Positions 8,400 through 53,081 of a stretch of DNA of 64,000 nt are shown one piece after another. The notes beneath the pieces were generated by a model that worked only from the letters and a program-made list of their open reading frames with translations, did not search any database and was not told the DNA's origin. The first letter of the stretch is position 1. Each line of letters opens with the position of its first letter. The stretch is from Desulfobulbaceae bacterium (GTDB lineage Bacteria; Bacteroidota; Ignavibacteria; Kapaibacteriales; UBA2268). The stretch lies in NCBI GenBank assembly GCA_018335795.1, contig JAGXRP010000033.1, forward strand, positions 193,973-257,972, written 5' to 3'. The position numbers were made by a program, and so were the translations under genes.

Positions 8400-9974
8400 A
8401 TGGATAAAATCAAAGGAAAGATACTCTGGATAGATGACGAAATTGACTTATTACGTCCTCATATCATATTACTCAACCAACGCGGCTTTGATGTTGCGAC
8501 TGCTACTAACGGTGAAGATGCAATTGAAATGTTGAAACAACAGCATTTCGATTTAATTTTTTTGGACGAATCAATGGTAGGAATTTCGGGATTAGAAACT
8601 TTGCCAATTTTGAAAGAAATTGACCCAACGACTCCAATTGTGATGGTCACTAAGAATGAAGCCGAAAGCGTAATGGAAGAAGCAATCGGTAGCAAAATTG
8701 ATGATTACTTGACAAAACCTGTCAACCCTACTCAAATTTTGATGGCTGCCAAAAAATTCCTCGAATCTTCGAGAATTGAAGAGGAGAAATTCACTCAAAA
8801 TTATTTGATGGGCTTCAATGAAATTTCCAGACAAATGCTCGGTCAAGTTGAATGGAAAGATTGGGTCGAGATATATACACGATTAGTACAATGGTCAATG
8901 GAATTGGACAGAATGCCCAATTCGACACTTACTCAGACATTACAGGACCAATTTCGAAATGCGAATGCAGAATTTTCAAAATTTATCGAACGTAATTATA
9001 TAAATTGGTTAGACACAAAATACGAAGATGCTAATCCTGTGCTTTCACCACATCTTTTAGATACATATTTAAAGCCTCTACTCAGTCAATCTAAGACTGT
9101 TTTCGTTTTTGTTGTGGATTGCTTGAGGCTTGACCAATGGCTCGTCATGCAAGAGCTTTTAGCATCATATTATTCCTTCAAGACAAATTATTATTGCACA
9201 ATACTCCCGACTGCAACTCAATTTGCACGGAACTCGATTTTTTCGGGTTTATATCCGATTGAAATTAAGAAGCATTACCCTCAGTGGTGGAACTCTGATA
9301 CCAATAGTGAAGACCATAAATTAAATGCTTTTGAAAAAGAATTACTTGAAGCATGGATCGAACGACGTAGAATAAAACTCAGGAACAGACCCGGCTATGT
9401 CAAAATATTCGATACTGAGTTCGGTCAAAAAATCGAACGAGATATAATGCAATATACTCAAAATCATTTGAATGCTTTCGTTTTAAATGCTGTGGATATG
9501 ATTGCCCACTCGCGTTCTGATTATGCTATTTTGAAGGAAATCGCGCCCGACGAATCAGCTTATCGCTCCTTGACACGTTCATGGTTCAGACATTCCAGCT
9601 TTTTCGGTATGCTCAAGGCTCTTTCAAAACAAAAAGACATCAGTATCATCATCACAACTGACCACGGTTCCGTTAGATGTATGCGTGGAGTAAAGGTATT
9701 AGGCGATAGAGATACTTCTACAAATTTGCGTTATAAATTCGGTAAAAACGTTAAAGCTGAATCCAGATATGCAATGCAAATAGCAAGACCTGAAGATTAC
9801 AAACTTCCTGCTCACGGAATTACAGTCAACAATATTATCGCAAAAGAAGACTATTATTTCGTGTACCCTACTGATTATCATCATTATTTGAATAAATATC
9901 GTGACAGTTTCCAGCATGGCGGCATTTCGATGGAAGAAATGATTTGCCCGGTTGTGCAGCTGACACCAAGGTAA
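8400..9974 (+). CDS. porX: PorX: two-component response regulator with PglZ domain (T9SS control)
   Basis: Response regulator of the T9SS in Bacteroidota. In known cases PorX is phosphorylated by PorY and works with the ECF sigma factor SigP. At 524 residues it has the usual length. Residues 1-125 are a CheY-like receiver with acidic residues D12/D13, phospho-acceptor D56 in FLDESM, and K110-region TKPVNP. Residues about 225-520 are a PglZ/alkaline-phosphatase-like domain with VVDCLRLDQW, the TATQFARNSIFSG block, and metal-ligand motif TTDHGS followed by LGDRDTSTNLRYK. Its presence agrees with the T9SS-tailed proteins and the PorV-like protein in the window. tsaE starts 3 nt after its stop. 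PorY is not in the window. Confidence 0.93.
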   Translation: MDKIKGKILWIDDEIDLLRPHIILLNQRGFDVATATNGEDAIEMLKQQHFDLIFLDESMVGISGLETLPILKEIDPTTPIVMVTKNEAESVMEEAIGSKIDDYLTKPVNPTQILMAAKKFLESSRIEEEKFTQNYLMGFNEISRQMLGQVEWKDWVEIYTRLVQWSMELDRMPNSTLTQTLQDQFRNANAEFSKFIERNYINWLDTKYEDANPVLSPHLLDTYLKPLLSQSKTVFVFVVDCLRLDQWLVMQELLASYYSFKTNYYCTILPTATQFARNSIFSGLYPIEIKKHYPQWWNSDTNSEDHKLNAFEKELLEAWIERRRIKLRNRPGYVKIFDTEFGQKIERDIMQYTQNHLNAFVLNAVDMIAHSRSDYAILKEIAPDESAYRSLTRSWFRHSSFFGMLKALSKQKDISIIITTDHGSVRCMRGVKVLGDRDTSTNLRYKFGKNVKAESRYAMQIARPEDYKLPAHGITVNNIIAKEDYYFVYPTDYHHYLNKYRDSFQHGGISMEEMICPVVQLTPR

Positions 9975-10442: not shown

Positions 10443-12068
10443 TTATCGTAGTATGATAATCGGATGAAATAAGCTACGATTTCCACCTATAATTTTCAGA
10501 TAATATATTCCTTGAGCAAAAGAACTTGTTGAAATTTTTCTGAATTGTTCAATATTTACTATGCTTTCCGCTTGTTCATCGTAAATCTTCCTACCAATGA
10601 AATCATATATTTCAAAAATTGTAGTTTGCGAATTACTGTTGAAATACTGAATATTCAGGTTATCTAAGACTGGATTTGGGAAAACTTTCGTTAATTTTAA
10701 ATTCGAATCATCGAAGCAATCTGCCAATTTTATGACTTTTACATTCTTATTTAAAGTGTCTGCCGGTAGCTCCCATTCATCTGTAGCAATTAGTTTGATT
10801 TCGAGACTATCGTATAGCGGACTAATGTATATCTTCATTTCAGTATTATAAACGTTGAACCACTCTGTTGGCGAATCATTTATAAAAGCTCTATATGAAT
10901 AATCAAGATTATAAGTATGTCGTCCTTTGTAAAGGGGTTGGATGTTCCACATAGCTATTTCACAAGTGAAAACTTCATTGGGCCCTGAAATTGTTATGTT
11001 ATTATTTACAAATGATGTGGTATTGTTTGATAATGGCTTAAAGGTAGTATTGATTCGGGAAATATTCATTCCTTTCAATTCATTTACTTTAGATTTAATC
11101 TCACTAAAGCCGGTTCTCGGGTTTGCGGTATAAAGAAACCAATCAATCTCAATTTTGTGTTCTTCTTTTATTCCATTTAGGGCGCTTTCGCCAATTGAGT
11201 GCATTGAATACCAAGTCTGAAAATCATACTGAGGATAATAATTTTTAATAGTATAAGGTTGGAGCCATGAATCAGATTCGTAGGATTCGCCTGAGTAAAT
11301 TAAGTAATCCACATCAGGTTCGTCACTCAAAATCTCGAAAGCTATCATATTGCCTAATTTATCAACACGCATAACATAAATCATCCATCTGTCGCCAATT
11401 AAAGGTCTCCCCTTGTACTCACCAACGCATTGTTTATATCCTGTGAGTTTGCCATTTTCGCAACAGATGCAATCCAAGTCTGTGTTTAATATATTGATGC
11501 CGGAGTAATTATTACAACCGGTTTTCAACCTTGGGTGACCGTCATGATACCAACCATTATTCCATTCAAAGTCCATTTCAGCCCAATATCTGATTTCATC
11601 GTCACCATCTTTAAATTTAAACATTGTGCTACTCCATAGCCAATACGCTTGGGTAATTTTGTCGGGATCTTTCAATGCTTCAAGTTTGATTCTGGTGGCA
11701 TAAGTACCTTCCCTGAATAAAAAGCTTGATACGATAAATGGGTGCGGATGAGGTTCCCATTTCCCTTTATTAAAAATTAATTGCACTCCGACTGAATCAA
11801 ATCTGATTGTTGTATTCGGATGTTGCTTAGTAGAATCATGATAAACATAGCCTTGCCAAGCTCGTGAACTAACGATTCCGTCACGGGTTATCCATGGATT
11901 ATTTCCAAATATCGAACCTGATGAATCAAATGGTGCCGGATTAATGAAATTCGTATAATGAAAATCATCAAATAGGTACTCTGTATCAAACAAATCTTGC
12001 GATTTTAATAAACTAATCTCTAATAAAAGAATAGTAATAGTAGCAGCGACTAAATAAAAGAAGTTCAT
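10443..12068 (-). CDS. Secreted GH16-like (concanavalin-fold) protein with T9SS sorting domain
   Basis: Predicted secreted protein of 541 residues. An N-terminal hydrophobic signal ends near KSQD. Residues about 30-310 look like a glycoside hydrolase family 16 jelly roll: the strand YATRIKLEA, AYWLWSS, and then AEMDFEW, which fits the GH16 catalytic pattern E-x-D-x-E. The middle region holds Ig-like strands, and the C-terminus (VFPNPVLDNLNIQYF, ending in ILR) is a type A T9SS sorting domain. The ATG at 12068 is preferred to the adjacent GTG. The substrate is not predictable; agar, laminarin and related beta-glucans are typical of GH16, but similarity outside the motif is weak. It lies 27 nt after the DUF62/ABC-binding lipoprotein and may share its transcript. 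Confidence 0.65.
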   Translation of the reverse strand: MNFFYLVAATITILLLEISLLKSQDLFDTEYLFDDFHYTNFINPAPFDSSGSIFGNNPWITRDGIVSSRAWQGYVYHDSTKQHPNTTIRFDSVGVQLIFNKGKWEPHPHPFIVSSFLFREGTYATRIKLEALKDPDKITQAYWLWSSTMFKFKDGDDEIRYWAEMDFEWNNGWYHDGHPRLKTGCNNYSGINILNTDLDCICCENGKLTGYKQCVGEYKGRPLIGDRWMIYVMRVDKLGNMIAFEILSDEPDVDYLIYSGESYESDSWLQPYTIKNYYPQYDFQTWYSMHSIGESALNGIKEEHKIEIDWFLYTANPRTGFSEIKSKVNELKGMNISRINTTFKPLSNNTTSFVNNNITISGPNEVFTCEIAMWNIQPLYKGRHTYNLDYSYRAFINDSPTEWFNVYNTEMKIYISPLYDSLEIKLIATDEWELPADTLNKNVKVIKLADCFDDSNLKLTKVFPNPVLDNLNIQYFNSNSQTTIFEIYDFIGRKIYDEQAESIVNIEQFRKISTSSFAQGIYYLKIIGGNRSLFHPIIILR

Positions 12069-12095
12069 CACAATGTCTGCATATTGTACAAAAAA

Positions 12096-13847
12096 TTATT
12101 CTACAATATATGTTGCTTTCAACAATAAATCGGTAGAAAATGTGAAATTTAATGCTTGAGCTGTCCTTTTATTCAAATAAATTTGAGTTGTAGGTAAATA
12201 TTTGACTGCAATGGCATCAGCGTTAATACCCAAAATTACCGAAATTGCAGAAACTCCCGTTTCGAGCGCTAATTCATCATAATCAACAGAAACACCACCT
12301 ATTGCACCGTCTTCAACGTTTTCTCGCGAATCTCCAATCACAAACATGTTCTTGACCATTGCATTCTGTGAAAGATTTTTCATTCCCAAATTCATCGTAT
12401 TATCAGCGGCGATAAGAACTGTATTGATTTGTTTATTTTCAAAATTTGACAACGCCGGTGTTATCTGACTTATGTTTTCAACAATTTCATTAGTGAATTC
12501 CAAACCGTAAAGAACAGATAATGAACTCAATCTCTGTTGAGCATAGAGAGAATTTGGTTCACTTGGATTATACATCCGTCCTGCATGAGTCAAATCAGGG
12601 AATAATTCTTTAACAAATTTTAAATAATCATCAAAATTAGTTGCATCTGATAATCCTGTGACATTTTCACGTGCATTTATAATTCCTGCAAACTCCGGCG
12701 AAGTTACATAAGTAAATACTACAGGAATATTTGAAGGTATGTATTCAACAGCGGCTTTGGAAGCAGGAGTAGAAACAGGGATGATTATATCGCATTTCAA
12801 GTCAACCAACTCTTTACACAAAGATGCTAATTTTGATGCATCTCCGTTTGCATTTTTTTCAAAATATTCAACATTTTTGTCATCAATCAATCCATATTGT
12901 AGCATTGTTTTTTTAGTGCCTTGAATTATATTCTCCGAAAGTTCAGACATGTTGTATCTTAAAAATCCAACTTTAATATTTGCAGCCGAAATTTGAATTG
13001 TATCGCCGGCATTCAAATTATATTTCTCAGACATATTTCCAAAATTCACAGCAAGGATTAATTTATTGTCGGCATCAAGCAATGCAACATTAGCCCCGAC
13101 AGGTACACTCGAAAAAGTACTTGACCAACGAGCGTAGAAAGTACTTTCTCCTGCTTGAACTTTCAAAATCGAGCCAAGATCAATCCCTGATAATAAATCA
13201 CTCGTGATATTTGTTTCCACGTTGCCGATATTGTCGATATATAGGCTCTGCCCTACTATATTGCCACCATTACGATAAGCATCATAAACTGGTCTTAGAA
13301 TTGGGTCAGTACATACTGAGCCGAATCTGTTAAGCGGAGCACCTGAAAGAACAGTTCTCACTGCTGAATTATAAATTTCAAAAAATGTTACATCATCAAT
13401 ACTTTTGTGTTTGCCATCGAATAGAAGCATATTATCAATATATCTGATTTCGCCGTAAGTATAATTTGCCAAGACTCGCGAAGCTAAACCATTATCAGGC
13501 AAAATAAAGGCTTGGTCGCCTACTTTGAAAATGATATTTCTTTCAGTATCACCATCATCAACAGTTGACAAAAAGACTGTGTTAATAGGATAATTCTTAT
13601 TTGCTTGTTCCAAAACGTAAGCAGCTTGGGCTACGTCAAAATTTCGGGTTTGAATGTATTCGAACTTGACATTTGGAAATTCTTTATTTACGATTCCGGA
13701 CAAGCTCATGACTAATTCGCTACTACGGTCATAATCGGTAATCAAAACAAAAGTGCGGTCGTAACCGATATAGTTATTTGTTATGTTTTCATCACCACAA
13801 GAACTGAACAATATTGCAATCAACACTAAAAGAATATATTTCATCAT
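12096..13847 (-). CDS. Lipoprotein fusing a degenerate SAM-hydrolase (DUF62) fold to an ABC substrate-binding domain
   Basis: A 583-residue lipoprotein with lipobox LFSSC (Cys17). Residues about 32-287 follow the DUF62 SAM hydrolase/halogenase family throughout: FVLITDYD at the N-terminal strand, FLSTVDDGDTER, LPDNGLASRVL, then the C-terminal barrel with SLYIDNIGNVETNI and LAVNFGNMSEKYNLNAGD. The catalytic His-Gly-Arg-Asp region is replaced by FFEIYNS and the DPGVGTxR loop is one residue shorter, so hydrolysis is unlikely. Residues about 290-583 match the ABC_sub_bind family (TrpX-like): VGFLRYN, IIPVSTPASKAAVE, IPVVFTYVTSPEFAGI, NVTGLSD, MYNPSEPNS, IAADNT. No permease or ATPase is adjacent. 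It may be a periplasm-facing ligand sensor or a solo binding protein. Confidence 0.8.
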   Translation of the reverse strand: MMKYILLVLIAILFSSCGDENITNNYIGYDRTFVLITDYDRSSELVMSLSGIVNKEFPNVKFEYIQTRNFDVAQAAYVLEQANKNYPINTVFLSTVDDGDTERNIIFKVGDQAFILPDNGLASRVLANYTYGEIRYIDNMLLFDGKHKSIDDVTFFEIYNSAVRTVLSGAPLNRFGSVCTDPILRPVYDAYRNGGNIVGQSLYIDNIGNVETNITSDLLSGIDLGSILKVQAGESTFYARWSSTFSSVPVGANVALLDADNKLILAVNFGNMSEKYNLNAGDTIQISAANIKVGFLRYNMSELSENIIQGTKKTMLQYGLIDDKNVEYFEKNANGDASKLASLCKELVDLKCDIIIPVSTPASKAAVEYIPSNIPVVFTYVTSPEFAGIINARENVTGLSDATNFDDYLKFVKELFPDLTHAGRMYNPSEPNSLYAQQRLSSLSVLYGLEFTNEIVENISQITPALSNFENKQINTVLIAADNTMNLGMKNLSQNAMVKNMFVIGDSRENVEDGAIGGVSVDYDELALETGVSAISVILGINADAIAVKYLPTTQIYLNKRTAQALNFTFSTDLLLKATYIVE

Positions 13848-14008
13848 TTATAAATGTCCGTTTAAATAATAGTAAAGTAGCAATAACGAATACCCTTGTA
13901 CATTAATTATATTTTTTATTCAATTTAGTGTCAATTTCTCGTATGAATTTCGTATTTTTAGAAACTTATGAAATCAAATTATTAACAATATTTAATTAGG
14001 TGAGTTTT

Positions 14009-51294: not shown

Positions 51295-53007
51295 CTAATC
51301 AACAAATTGGATTGCGTAGTATTTTGGAGTGAGCTTTTCGCCGGTTGCTTTTTCAATCATATCGTTCCACAAATAGCGTTTGCCGGGTTGGAAAACGTTT
51401 TTGATTAGATATTCGCCGACTTCGGGATGTCCGACTAAGCCCGGATTAGCATTTGGTACATCTTTCAATACTTTCGTTGTGATTGTATTATATAGTTGCG
51501 ATGCAAGCAATTCGCCCAAATGATAGTTATGGTAGTAGCATGGCGATGTTGCAATGTGAATTTTTGTTGCCCAATCCGGCATGTCTCTGCCTTCGGGTTT
51601 CTTCATCATTTGATATTTTTCGACCAATGACCACCATAGTGCGTTCAAATCTTGCTCGGGATTGGCATAAAGTTCTTTTTCAAATCTGTACATTACTTGT
51701 GACCAGCGGCTGAAAACGAGTTGTTGGAGCTTCAGAATGTTGTGGCAAGTAGCAGCGATGCTGTCTTTTTCTGCGGCACTGATGCCAATCATTGATTGCA
51801 GCCATGATGGGTCCGATGCCATTCTGCCGAATAACATCGCAATTGCTTCAGTTGTGAAGATGTGTGCTGGTTCTTTGAGTGTCCAAGGCAATGCAGCATC
51901 GTAATGATATTCGTAAAGTGCGTGTCCGTATTCGTGAAGCATAGTTTCGCCCCAACGCGCATTTGGTACTACATTGCACAATACTCTGATGTCTTTTGCG
52001 TGGCGGTCAATGTTGATGCAATAAGCATGTTGATTTTTGTTTGGTTTCTCGAACAAATCACTTTTGGCAACTAAGTCATCAATCGGCAAATTGAGCGATT
52101 TGAAATAATCTACGGACAACTTTACCAAATCTTGGTCTTTGTAGTATTTATCCATATCAACTTCATAGATTTTCGGAGCTTCTTGGAAATAACGATTTTG
52201 GTAGTGCCAAGGCATTAATTGCTCGACTTTGATTTTGTTTTGTGCTGCTAAAAATGTGTCAATTTCGCCTTTTAATTTAACAAAAGTGTCTCGAGTTAAG
52301 CCATCTAATTCGTCAAAAAGATTTTCAATTTGTTCGGGGTCTTGTTCGCTAAGCTTCAAGCTCATTTCGTGATAATTGTTGTAACCCAATTCATGTGCGA
52401 TTTCGTTTCTCAATCTAACAAGGTTCAAAATATCTTCTCTTACAATAGGACCAATATCTTTATGGGCTAACCAAGTTGCCTGAAGTTCCTTTTGATTTTT
52501 CGATGTTTTCAAAACCTCTTCAACTTGATTATCAGTTAACTCTTTGTTTCCGACTTTCGCTCTGTAGTTAGAGTATTTGTTTTCGATTTGGGCTTGCATA
52601 GTCGAAAGTTGGTTAAGCTTGGAAGTATCAATTTGCTTGGACAACATCCCCAAATACATTACTTCCAATCTTCTTGCCATCAATTCATCTGTAATGAAAC
52701 CACTTTCCTTGAATTTTTTGATTGATTCAAAATTGCCCTTGTTGGCTAAAATTTCGTTGAATTTCATGTCCGCTTGTGAGTAATTATTCCAATTTTCTTC
52801 GTTGGAATTTAGTGATGCTTCCCAATATTTAGTGCAAACTTCGGTATATTCTACAGCAATTACTTTCTCCAGTGAATCTGCGAATGTTGAAAATTCTTGT
52901 TCCATCTTTGCAATTTCCTCTTTTCTTAATTGTTCGGCATTTTCCCCGCATGAGATTACTCCCATCATAAACAATGTTAACAGGGCTAAAGGCATAAATA
53001 TTTTCAT
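51295..53007 (-). CDS. M2-type zinc metallopeptidase lipoprotein
   Basis: A 570-residue peptidase of the M2 (angiotensin-converting enzyme-like) family. The start at 53007 gives a lipoprotein signal (MKIFMPLALLTLF, lipobox GVISC) and has a GGGAG site 9 nt upstream; an in-frame start 36 nt earlier would bury that signal. The zinc site is HEYGHALYEY, with the third ligand Glu in TTEAIAML about 25 residues later. The N-terminal helices (WEASLNSNEENW) and the C-terminal YYHNYHLGELLASQ fit M2 members. It probably trims peptides in the periplasm. It lies downstream of nuoI by 74 nt and ends at a terminator. Confidence 0.83.
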   Translation of the reverse strand: MKIFMPLALLTLFMMGVISCGENAEQLRKEEIAKMEQEFSTFADSLEKVIAVEYTEVCTKYWEASLNSNEENWNNYSQADMKFNEILANKGNFESIKKFKESGFITDELMARRLEVMYLGMLSKQIDTSKLNQLSTMQAQIENKYSNYRAKVGNKELTDNQVEEVLKTSKNQKELQATWLAHKDIGPIVREDILNLVRLRNEIAHELGYNNYHEMSLKLSEQDPEQIENLFDELDGLTRDTFVKLKGEIDTFLAAQNKIKVEQLMPWHYQNRYFQEAPKIYEVDMDKYYKDQDLVKLSVDYFKSLNLPIDDLVAKSDLFEKPNKNQHAYCINIDRHAKDIRVLCNVVPNARWGETMLHEYGHALYEYHYDAALPWTLKEPAHIFTTEAIAMLFGRMASDPSWLQSMIGISAAEKDSIAATCHNILKLQQLVFSRWSQVMYRFEKELYANPEQDLNALWWSLVEKYQMMKKPEGRDMPDWATKIHIATSPCYYHNYHLGELLASQLYNTITTKVLKDVPNANPGLVGHPEVGEYLIKNVFQPGKRYLWNDMIEKATGEKLTPKYYAIQFVD

Positions 53008-53081
53008 AACATAATACTCCCAAAAATTAGAAAACTTGCCCAAACAACAAATTGCTTCGGCATTTTTATTTTAAATTTTAA

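Follow-up and report, generated by a model that had tools for sequence, protein, structure and literature searches.

A gene in the 64,000-nucleotide stretch of DNA analyzed here (the window) encodes a predicted lipoprotein in which a DUF62 domain is fused to an ABC_sub_bind domain of the TrpX type and has lost its catalytic motif. The fusion is real and not an artefact. We put at close to an even chance (roughly 0.45) the reading that the product is a double-binding, probably trimeric extracytoplasmic lipoprotein, combining a nucleoside-binding pseudo-enzyme with an amino-acid-type binder. Each part comes from a known family. What is new to us is their combination and the fact that the catalytic motif has been lost in such a setting, and no description of a DUF62/ABC_sub_bind fusion was found in the limited open-access literature searched. 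The gene adds a domain architecture in a bacterial group with few characterized proteins. In a small group of uncultured, Ignavibacteriota-like bacteria, an old enzyme has apparently been put to new use beyond the cell membrane, as a second part for binding or assembly.

The gene is a single unbroken ORF (Table 1), and three Pfam domains were detected in it far above their gathering cut-offs: SAM_HAT_N (58.9 bits against 26.3), SAM_HAT_C (50.4 against 25.5), and ABC_sub_bind (135.3 against 25.9). This bears out the first-pass annotation, which had described a lipoprotein fusing DUF62 to a complete ABC_sub_bind module and had placed DUF62 at residues 32-287, where both SAM_HAT domains are significant. 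Profile-profile alignment also gave an overall DUF62 match (probability, 99.9%). Among PDB sequences, the N-terminal half matched 2zbu, a DUF62 protein (8e-25), with PH0463 and chlorinases also among the nearest; the C-terminal half matched the TrpX-type structures 3lkv (3e-25) and 3lft (2e-23), with 6hni also near. The NCBIfam assignments lie far below the equivalog cut-offs, both for the C-terminal half as a TrpX-type binding protein (149 against 390) and for the N-terminal half as an (R)-SAM hydrolase. The linker is nearly nil: DUF62 homology extends to residue 286 and TrpX-type homology begins at about residue 290. The lipobox LFSSC noted earlier was found again, with Cys17 behind a hydrophobic leader, and this leader and the conserved Cys form a sequence pattern common to all six fusions. 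Acidic residues after the Cys of a lipoprotein are a surface-export signal (PMC5080379); two such residues follow it in the window's genus and one in the other genus. The leader and Cys pattern supports the prediction of an extracytoplasmic lipoprotein.

Table 1. Features of the fusion gene and its surroundings in the window
Feature	Coordinates	Strand	Basis or remark
T9SS-sorted protein, no assigned function	10443..12071	-	24 bp downstream, same strand
Fusion lipoprotein CDS, 583 aa	12096..13847	-	ORF of 583 codons; full-length homologous ORFs in 5 other genomes
ABC_sub_bind (TrpX-like), residues 306-579; T360, T382, D401, N483 at TrpX ligand positions	12111..12932	-	Pfam PF04392, 3e-39; PMC9382623
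SAM_HAT_C (DUF62 C-terminal domain), residues 202-285	12993..13244	-	Pfam PF20257, 3e-13
DN-GN-ETN motif, residues 205-213, with N209 as fluorinase N215 equivalent	13209..13235	-	Alignment; PMC4859513
Former F-H-G-R-D site, residues 153-157, now VTFFE	13377..13391	-	Motif absent from 6/6 fusions
SAM_HAT_N (DUF62 N-terminal domain), residues 34-141	13425..13748	-	Pfam PF01887, 6e-16
PDNG, residues 117-120, superfamily PxNG(L) motif	13488..13499	-	Alignment; PMC4859513
D38, fluorinase D16 equivalent, invariant	13734..13736	-	Alignment; role from PMC4859513, PMC3999930
Predicted signal peptide and lipobox (LFSSC, Cys17)	13797..13847	-	Sequence; pattern in 6/6 fusions
Sigma-70-like promoter, perfect TTGACA-17-TATAAT, upstream of gene	13906..13934	-	Consensus match only

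The search for the architecture covered this phylum and plasmids, plus close relatives in a scan with one query. Whole-genome searches showed that the fusion is carried by six genomes: every one of the three from the window's genus and every one of the three from a second genus of its family. No copy was found in the rest of the order (123 genomes searched), in a sample of 197 genomes from the class, or in one of 395 genomes from the phylum. Of the plasmid records, 80 matched, none of them spanning 80% of the query, and the top rows corresponded to the binding domain; four scans of viral contigs for further relatives and a PHROGs search returned no match. The species-genome scan detected a full-length copy with 86% identity in Ignavibacteriae bacterium HGW-Ignavibacteriae-1, and the independent full-length copies had 86%, 44%, and 41% identity. 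A frame error joining two genes, raised as a concern by the earlier reading, and an assembly chimera were rejected because the full-length fusion is present in six independent genomes. Within the window's genus, the DUF62 half had a dN/dS of 0.06-0.10 and the binding half one of 0.08-0.10, indicating that both halves, including the pseudo-enzyme half, are maintained by purifying selection. Across the two genera, the binding half shows 47-53% identity and the DUF62 half 33-36%; this faster divergence could reflect a weaker ligand constraint on the DUF62 half.

To describe the DUF62 half, the six fusions were aligned with 53 non-fused DUF62 proteins. All of these but L095 fit the canonical pattern; among the 52 that do, L027 has Gln in place of the His. 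As a reference, we used the 35 positions conserved to at least 90% in the 52 canonical proteins. Thirteen of them are kept in every fusion: D38 (D16), G51, V96, P117, N119, G120, G176, G199, D205, G208, N209 (N215), T212, and G281. Another 13 are kept in no fusion, among them HGRD and its flanks, the D21 equivalent, the Gly of TDFG, and the Asp and His of DxxH. The catalytic triad of the hydrolases is D68-R75-H127 of PH0463 (PMC10491745, PMC4859513). The HGRD motif is present in 51 of the 53 non-fused relatives (FQGRD in L027, lost in L095) and in none of the fusions, where the position of H127 is occupied by T, P, or Q; thus, the Asp-Arg-His triad is incomplete in all six. This agrees with the first-pass annotation, which had reported the His-Gly-Arg-Asp region as replaced, although the alignment has a two-residue gap at this site, so that the absence of the motif is surer than the exact replacement residue. 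The Asp of the triad remains, with Glu instead in L051, and an Arg or Lys is found near the R75 position in all six fusions, its exact register in the window's genus being alignment-dependent owing to a shorter loop. The shortened DPGVGTxR (VDPGVGTxR) loop previously described was confirmed for the window's genus but not for the other genus.

SAM-site features shared in the superfamily are D16, N215, PxNGL, and IDxxFGN (PMC4859513, PMC10491745; further residues in PMC3999930). The equivalents D38, N209, P117-N119-G120, and D205 are invariant in the six fusions; the F of the FGN motif is I in the window's genus. With the His and HGRD lost and the D16, PxNG, and N215 equivalents kept, the known DUF62 hydrolysis should fail, and the part of the pocket that faces the nucleoside looks preserved. 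The position of D21 is occupied by S, T, or V, so the D21 contact is gone, which makes adenosine or another nucleoside a more likely ligand of this half than whole SAM, as judged from the residues. Where the halogenases have a Tyr (Y77 of FlA, Y70 of SalL), the fusions have Asp or Glu, showing that the protein is no ordinary halogenase either. The earlier proposal of a noncatalytic ligand sensor fits this pattern of 13 kept and 13 lost positions of 35; the word "dead" claims more than is proven, since the characterized halogenases of this superfamily, FlA and SalL among them, are likewise without the hydrolase triad (PMC10491745), although the fusions have no Tyr at the Y77 position as these do.

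Compared with the SAM hydroxide adenosyltransferase/(R)-SAM hydrolase (PF01887 and PF20257; PH0463/1wu8, T. maritima 2zbu), the fusion contains the same two domains in the same order and near full length. Both have the D16- and N215-type and PxNG motifs, the triad Asp (Glu in one fusion), and usually the Arg. Unlike the hydrolase, the fusion lacks the catalytic His/HGRD and D21, is predicted to be exported and lipidated, and is joined to a binding protein. It shares with the SAM-dependent halogenases FlA and SalL the missing hydrolase triad and a similar C-terminal motif (NSRGRL...), but it lacks the halide-site Tyr and D21, and nothing points to a biosynthetic cluster. In Bacteroidota, secreted DUF62 proteins with a single domain (e.g., L081 and L085) similarly place this fold outside the inner membrane, but they retain the full HGRD and carry no binding-protein domain.

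The ligand residues of TrpX are T108, A127, T129, D152, N233, and Q273 (PMC9382623), and the spacing of these six residues in 3lft was matched exactly. All six fusions read T, Y, T, D, N, Y at these positions: T108, T129, D152, and N233 are kept, and A127 and Q273 are each replaced by Tyr, the former being Y380. A Tyr at Q273 is also found in 3lkv and 6hni. The side-chain pocket of the binding half is altered by the A127-to-Tyr change, as read from the alignment, and with both Tyr replacements the amino-acid ligand may be other than tryptophan. Among 21 ABC_sub_bind domains from related genomes, either non-fused or fused to a permease, none has all four conserved residues, and T129, D152, and N233 never occur together. 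Thus, the fused domain is the best candidate for an amino-acid-type binder among the domains compared. In relation to TrpX/ABC_sub_bind proteins (PF04392; 3lft, 3lkv, 6hni), the fusion has a complete domain with the T108, T129, D152, and N233 equivalents, and differs in the Tyr at A127 and the N-terminal pseudo-enzyme domain.

In the double-binding reading, the protein would be exported and lipidated, as its sequence pattern suggests, and would trimerize via the DUF62 fold, as expected from the family (PMC12120602). In the DUF62 trimer, the active site lies between protomers, and adenosine promotes the trimer (PMC12120602). Because the pockets lie between subunits, a further role of the DUF62 half is probably to keep three binding domains joined. 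Judging from the residues, the N-terminal unit would most probably bind an adenosine-like compound without hydrolysis and the TrpX-like C-terminal unit a small amino-acid-type ligand; the captured ligand might be used for scavenging or sensing. Ligand roles were carried over by alignment at roughly 22-30% identity. AlphaFold2 models of the full protein and of the DUF62 half, made with two near-identical sequences (the window's and L005), had mean pLDDT values of 33 and 41 and were unusable. Double binding would also presuppose nucleosides or SAM in free form beyond the inner membrane of these bacteria, which counts against it.

The main rival explanation is that the DUF62 half is a scaffold only, which trimerizes or positions the binding domain and takes up no ligand, while the TrpX-like half does all the ligand work. 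The loss of the catalytic motif in all six fusions fits this explanation, as do the better conservation of the binding half between genera (35% invariant columns against 17%) and the near-nil linker, which suggests a rigid spacer. We nevertheless consider it doubtful, since the invariant residues of the DUF62 half are SAM-site motifs (the D16, PxNG, and N215 equivalents) and not glycines alone. A more elaborate version of double binding appears unlikely to us: a two-input receptor in which the retired adenosyl-transferase domain would sense a SAM-like compound or a nucleoside and, through rigid coupling in the trimer, would control amino-acid-type capture by the fused binding domain. If true, the fluorinase/SAM-hydrolase fold would here act as a receptor beyond the inner membrane. 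What DUF62 proteins do in the cell is still a matter of debate, and one of them may have a function other than SAM hydrolysis (PMC12120602). A selected natural variant that has dropped the catalytic His, kept adenosyl-site motifs, and is predicted to be extracytoplasmic as part of a binding protein offers a handle on other ligands of the fold.

The first-pass annotation had found no adjacent permease or ATPase. Indeed, neither adjoins the fusion gene in any of the six carrier genomes, but a permease with two ABC_sub_bind domains and an ATPase are encoded elsewhere in the window's genome. This TrpYZ-like importer (L038:3467-8341; G000:C33, approximately 27.5-32.3 kb) has a permease fused to the two binding domains (944 aa), adjoined by ATPase and STAS-domain genes; in the relatives G117 and G221, three binding domains are fused to the permease. 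The fusion could be an alternative substrate-binding subunit of such an importer (a permease with two or three ABC_sub_bind domains plus the ATPase): a related importer permease is encoded in five of the six carriers, the domain family is shared, and the protein is a predicted lipoprotein. We regard this as quite unlikely. The genome G194 (98% complete, 6 contigs) has the fusion without an importer permease or any other ABC_sub_bind domain, which argues against the fusion serving only as a part of the TrpYZ-like importer. In addition, G222 and G210 have the importer with no fusion detected, the importer bears binding domains of its own with different ligand residues, and the two genes are not near each other. 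TrpX, by comparison, is encoded together with its permease TrpY and ATPase TrpZ, whereas the fusion has no adjoining importer gene and, in G194, no related permease at all.

In an unrooted tree, the fusions did not group with the cytosolic hydrolases. They were placed, with weak support, in the part of the tree that holds the secreted DUF62 and halogenase sequences, on a long branch whose placement is unsure. An active DUF62 half with other chemistry (halogenase-like, or with a different nucleophile or substrate) is decidedly improbable: the missing triad of FlA and SalL, this weak grouping, and an aromatic residue (F70) at the W50 position would favor it, but the fusions keep the hydrolase Asp/Glu in place of the halogenase Tyr, D21 is missing, SAM is unexpected outside the inner membrane, and the branch is long. 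Descent of the DUF62 half from the cytosolic enzyme of the same family was not supported, with the long branch again leaving the placement unsure. A separate DUF62 gene is present besides the fusion in G194 and G117, and no second SAM_HAT_N gene was found in the window's own genome. A cytosolic single-domain DUF62 protein from another family of the phylum (L095:943-1725) has also lost the catalytic motif (IDTVYNEET, FPLADIF). Single-domain DUF62 proteins of Bacteroidota with signal peptides (L078, L080-L085, and L089; L085 with a lipobox) have an intact HGRD and resemble extracytoplasmic SAM hydrolases.

The gene order with the T9SS-sorted neighbor is shared by the three congeneric genomes and not by the other genus, where the neighbors are a TrkA-domain channel protein, a GH57 protein, or a predicted epimerase; a conserved operon was thus rejected. 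At the promoter-like site, two congeners keep TATAAT and have TTAACA as the -35-type element; the total number of sigma-70-like matches in the region was not above that in shuffled sequences. Elsewhere in the window, positions 8400-9974 encode PorX, a T9SS response regulator with a PglZ domain (NCBIfam, 698 bits), which adjoins tsaE, and positions 51295-53043 encode a predicted lipoprotein with a Peptidase_M2 (angiotensin-converting-enzyme family) domain.
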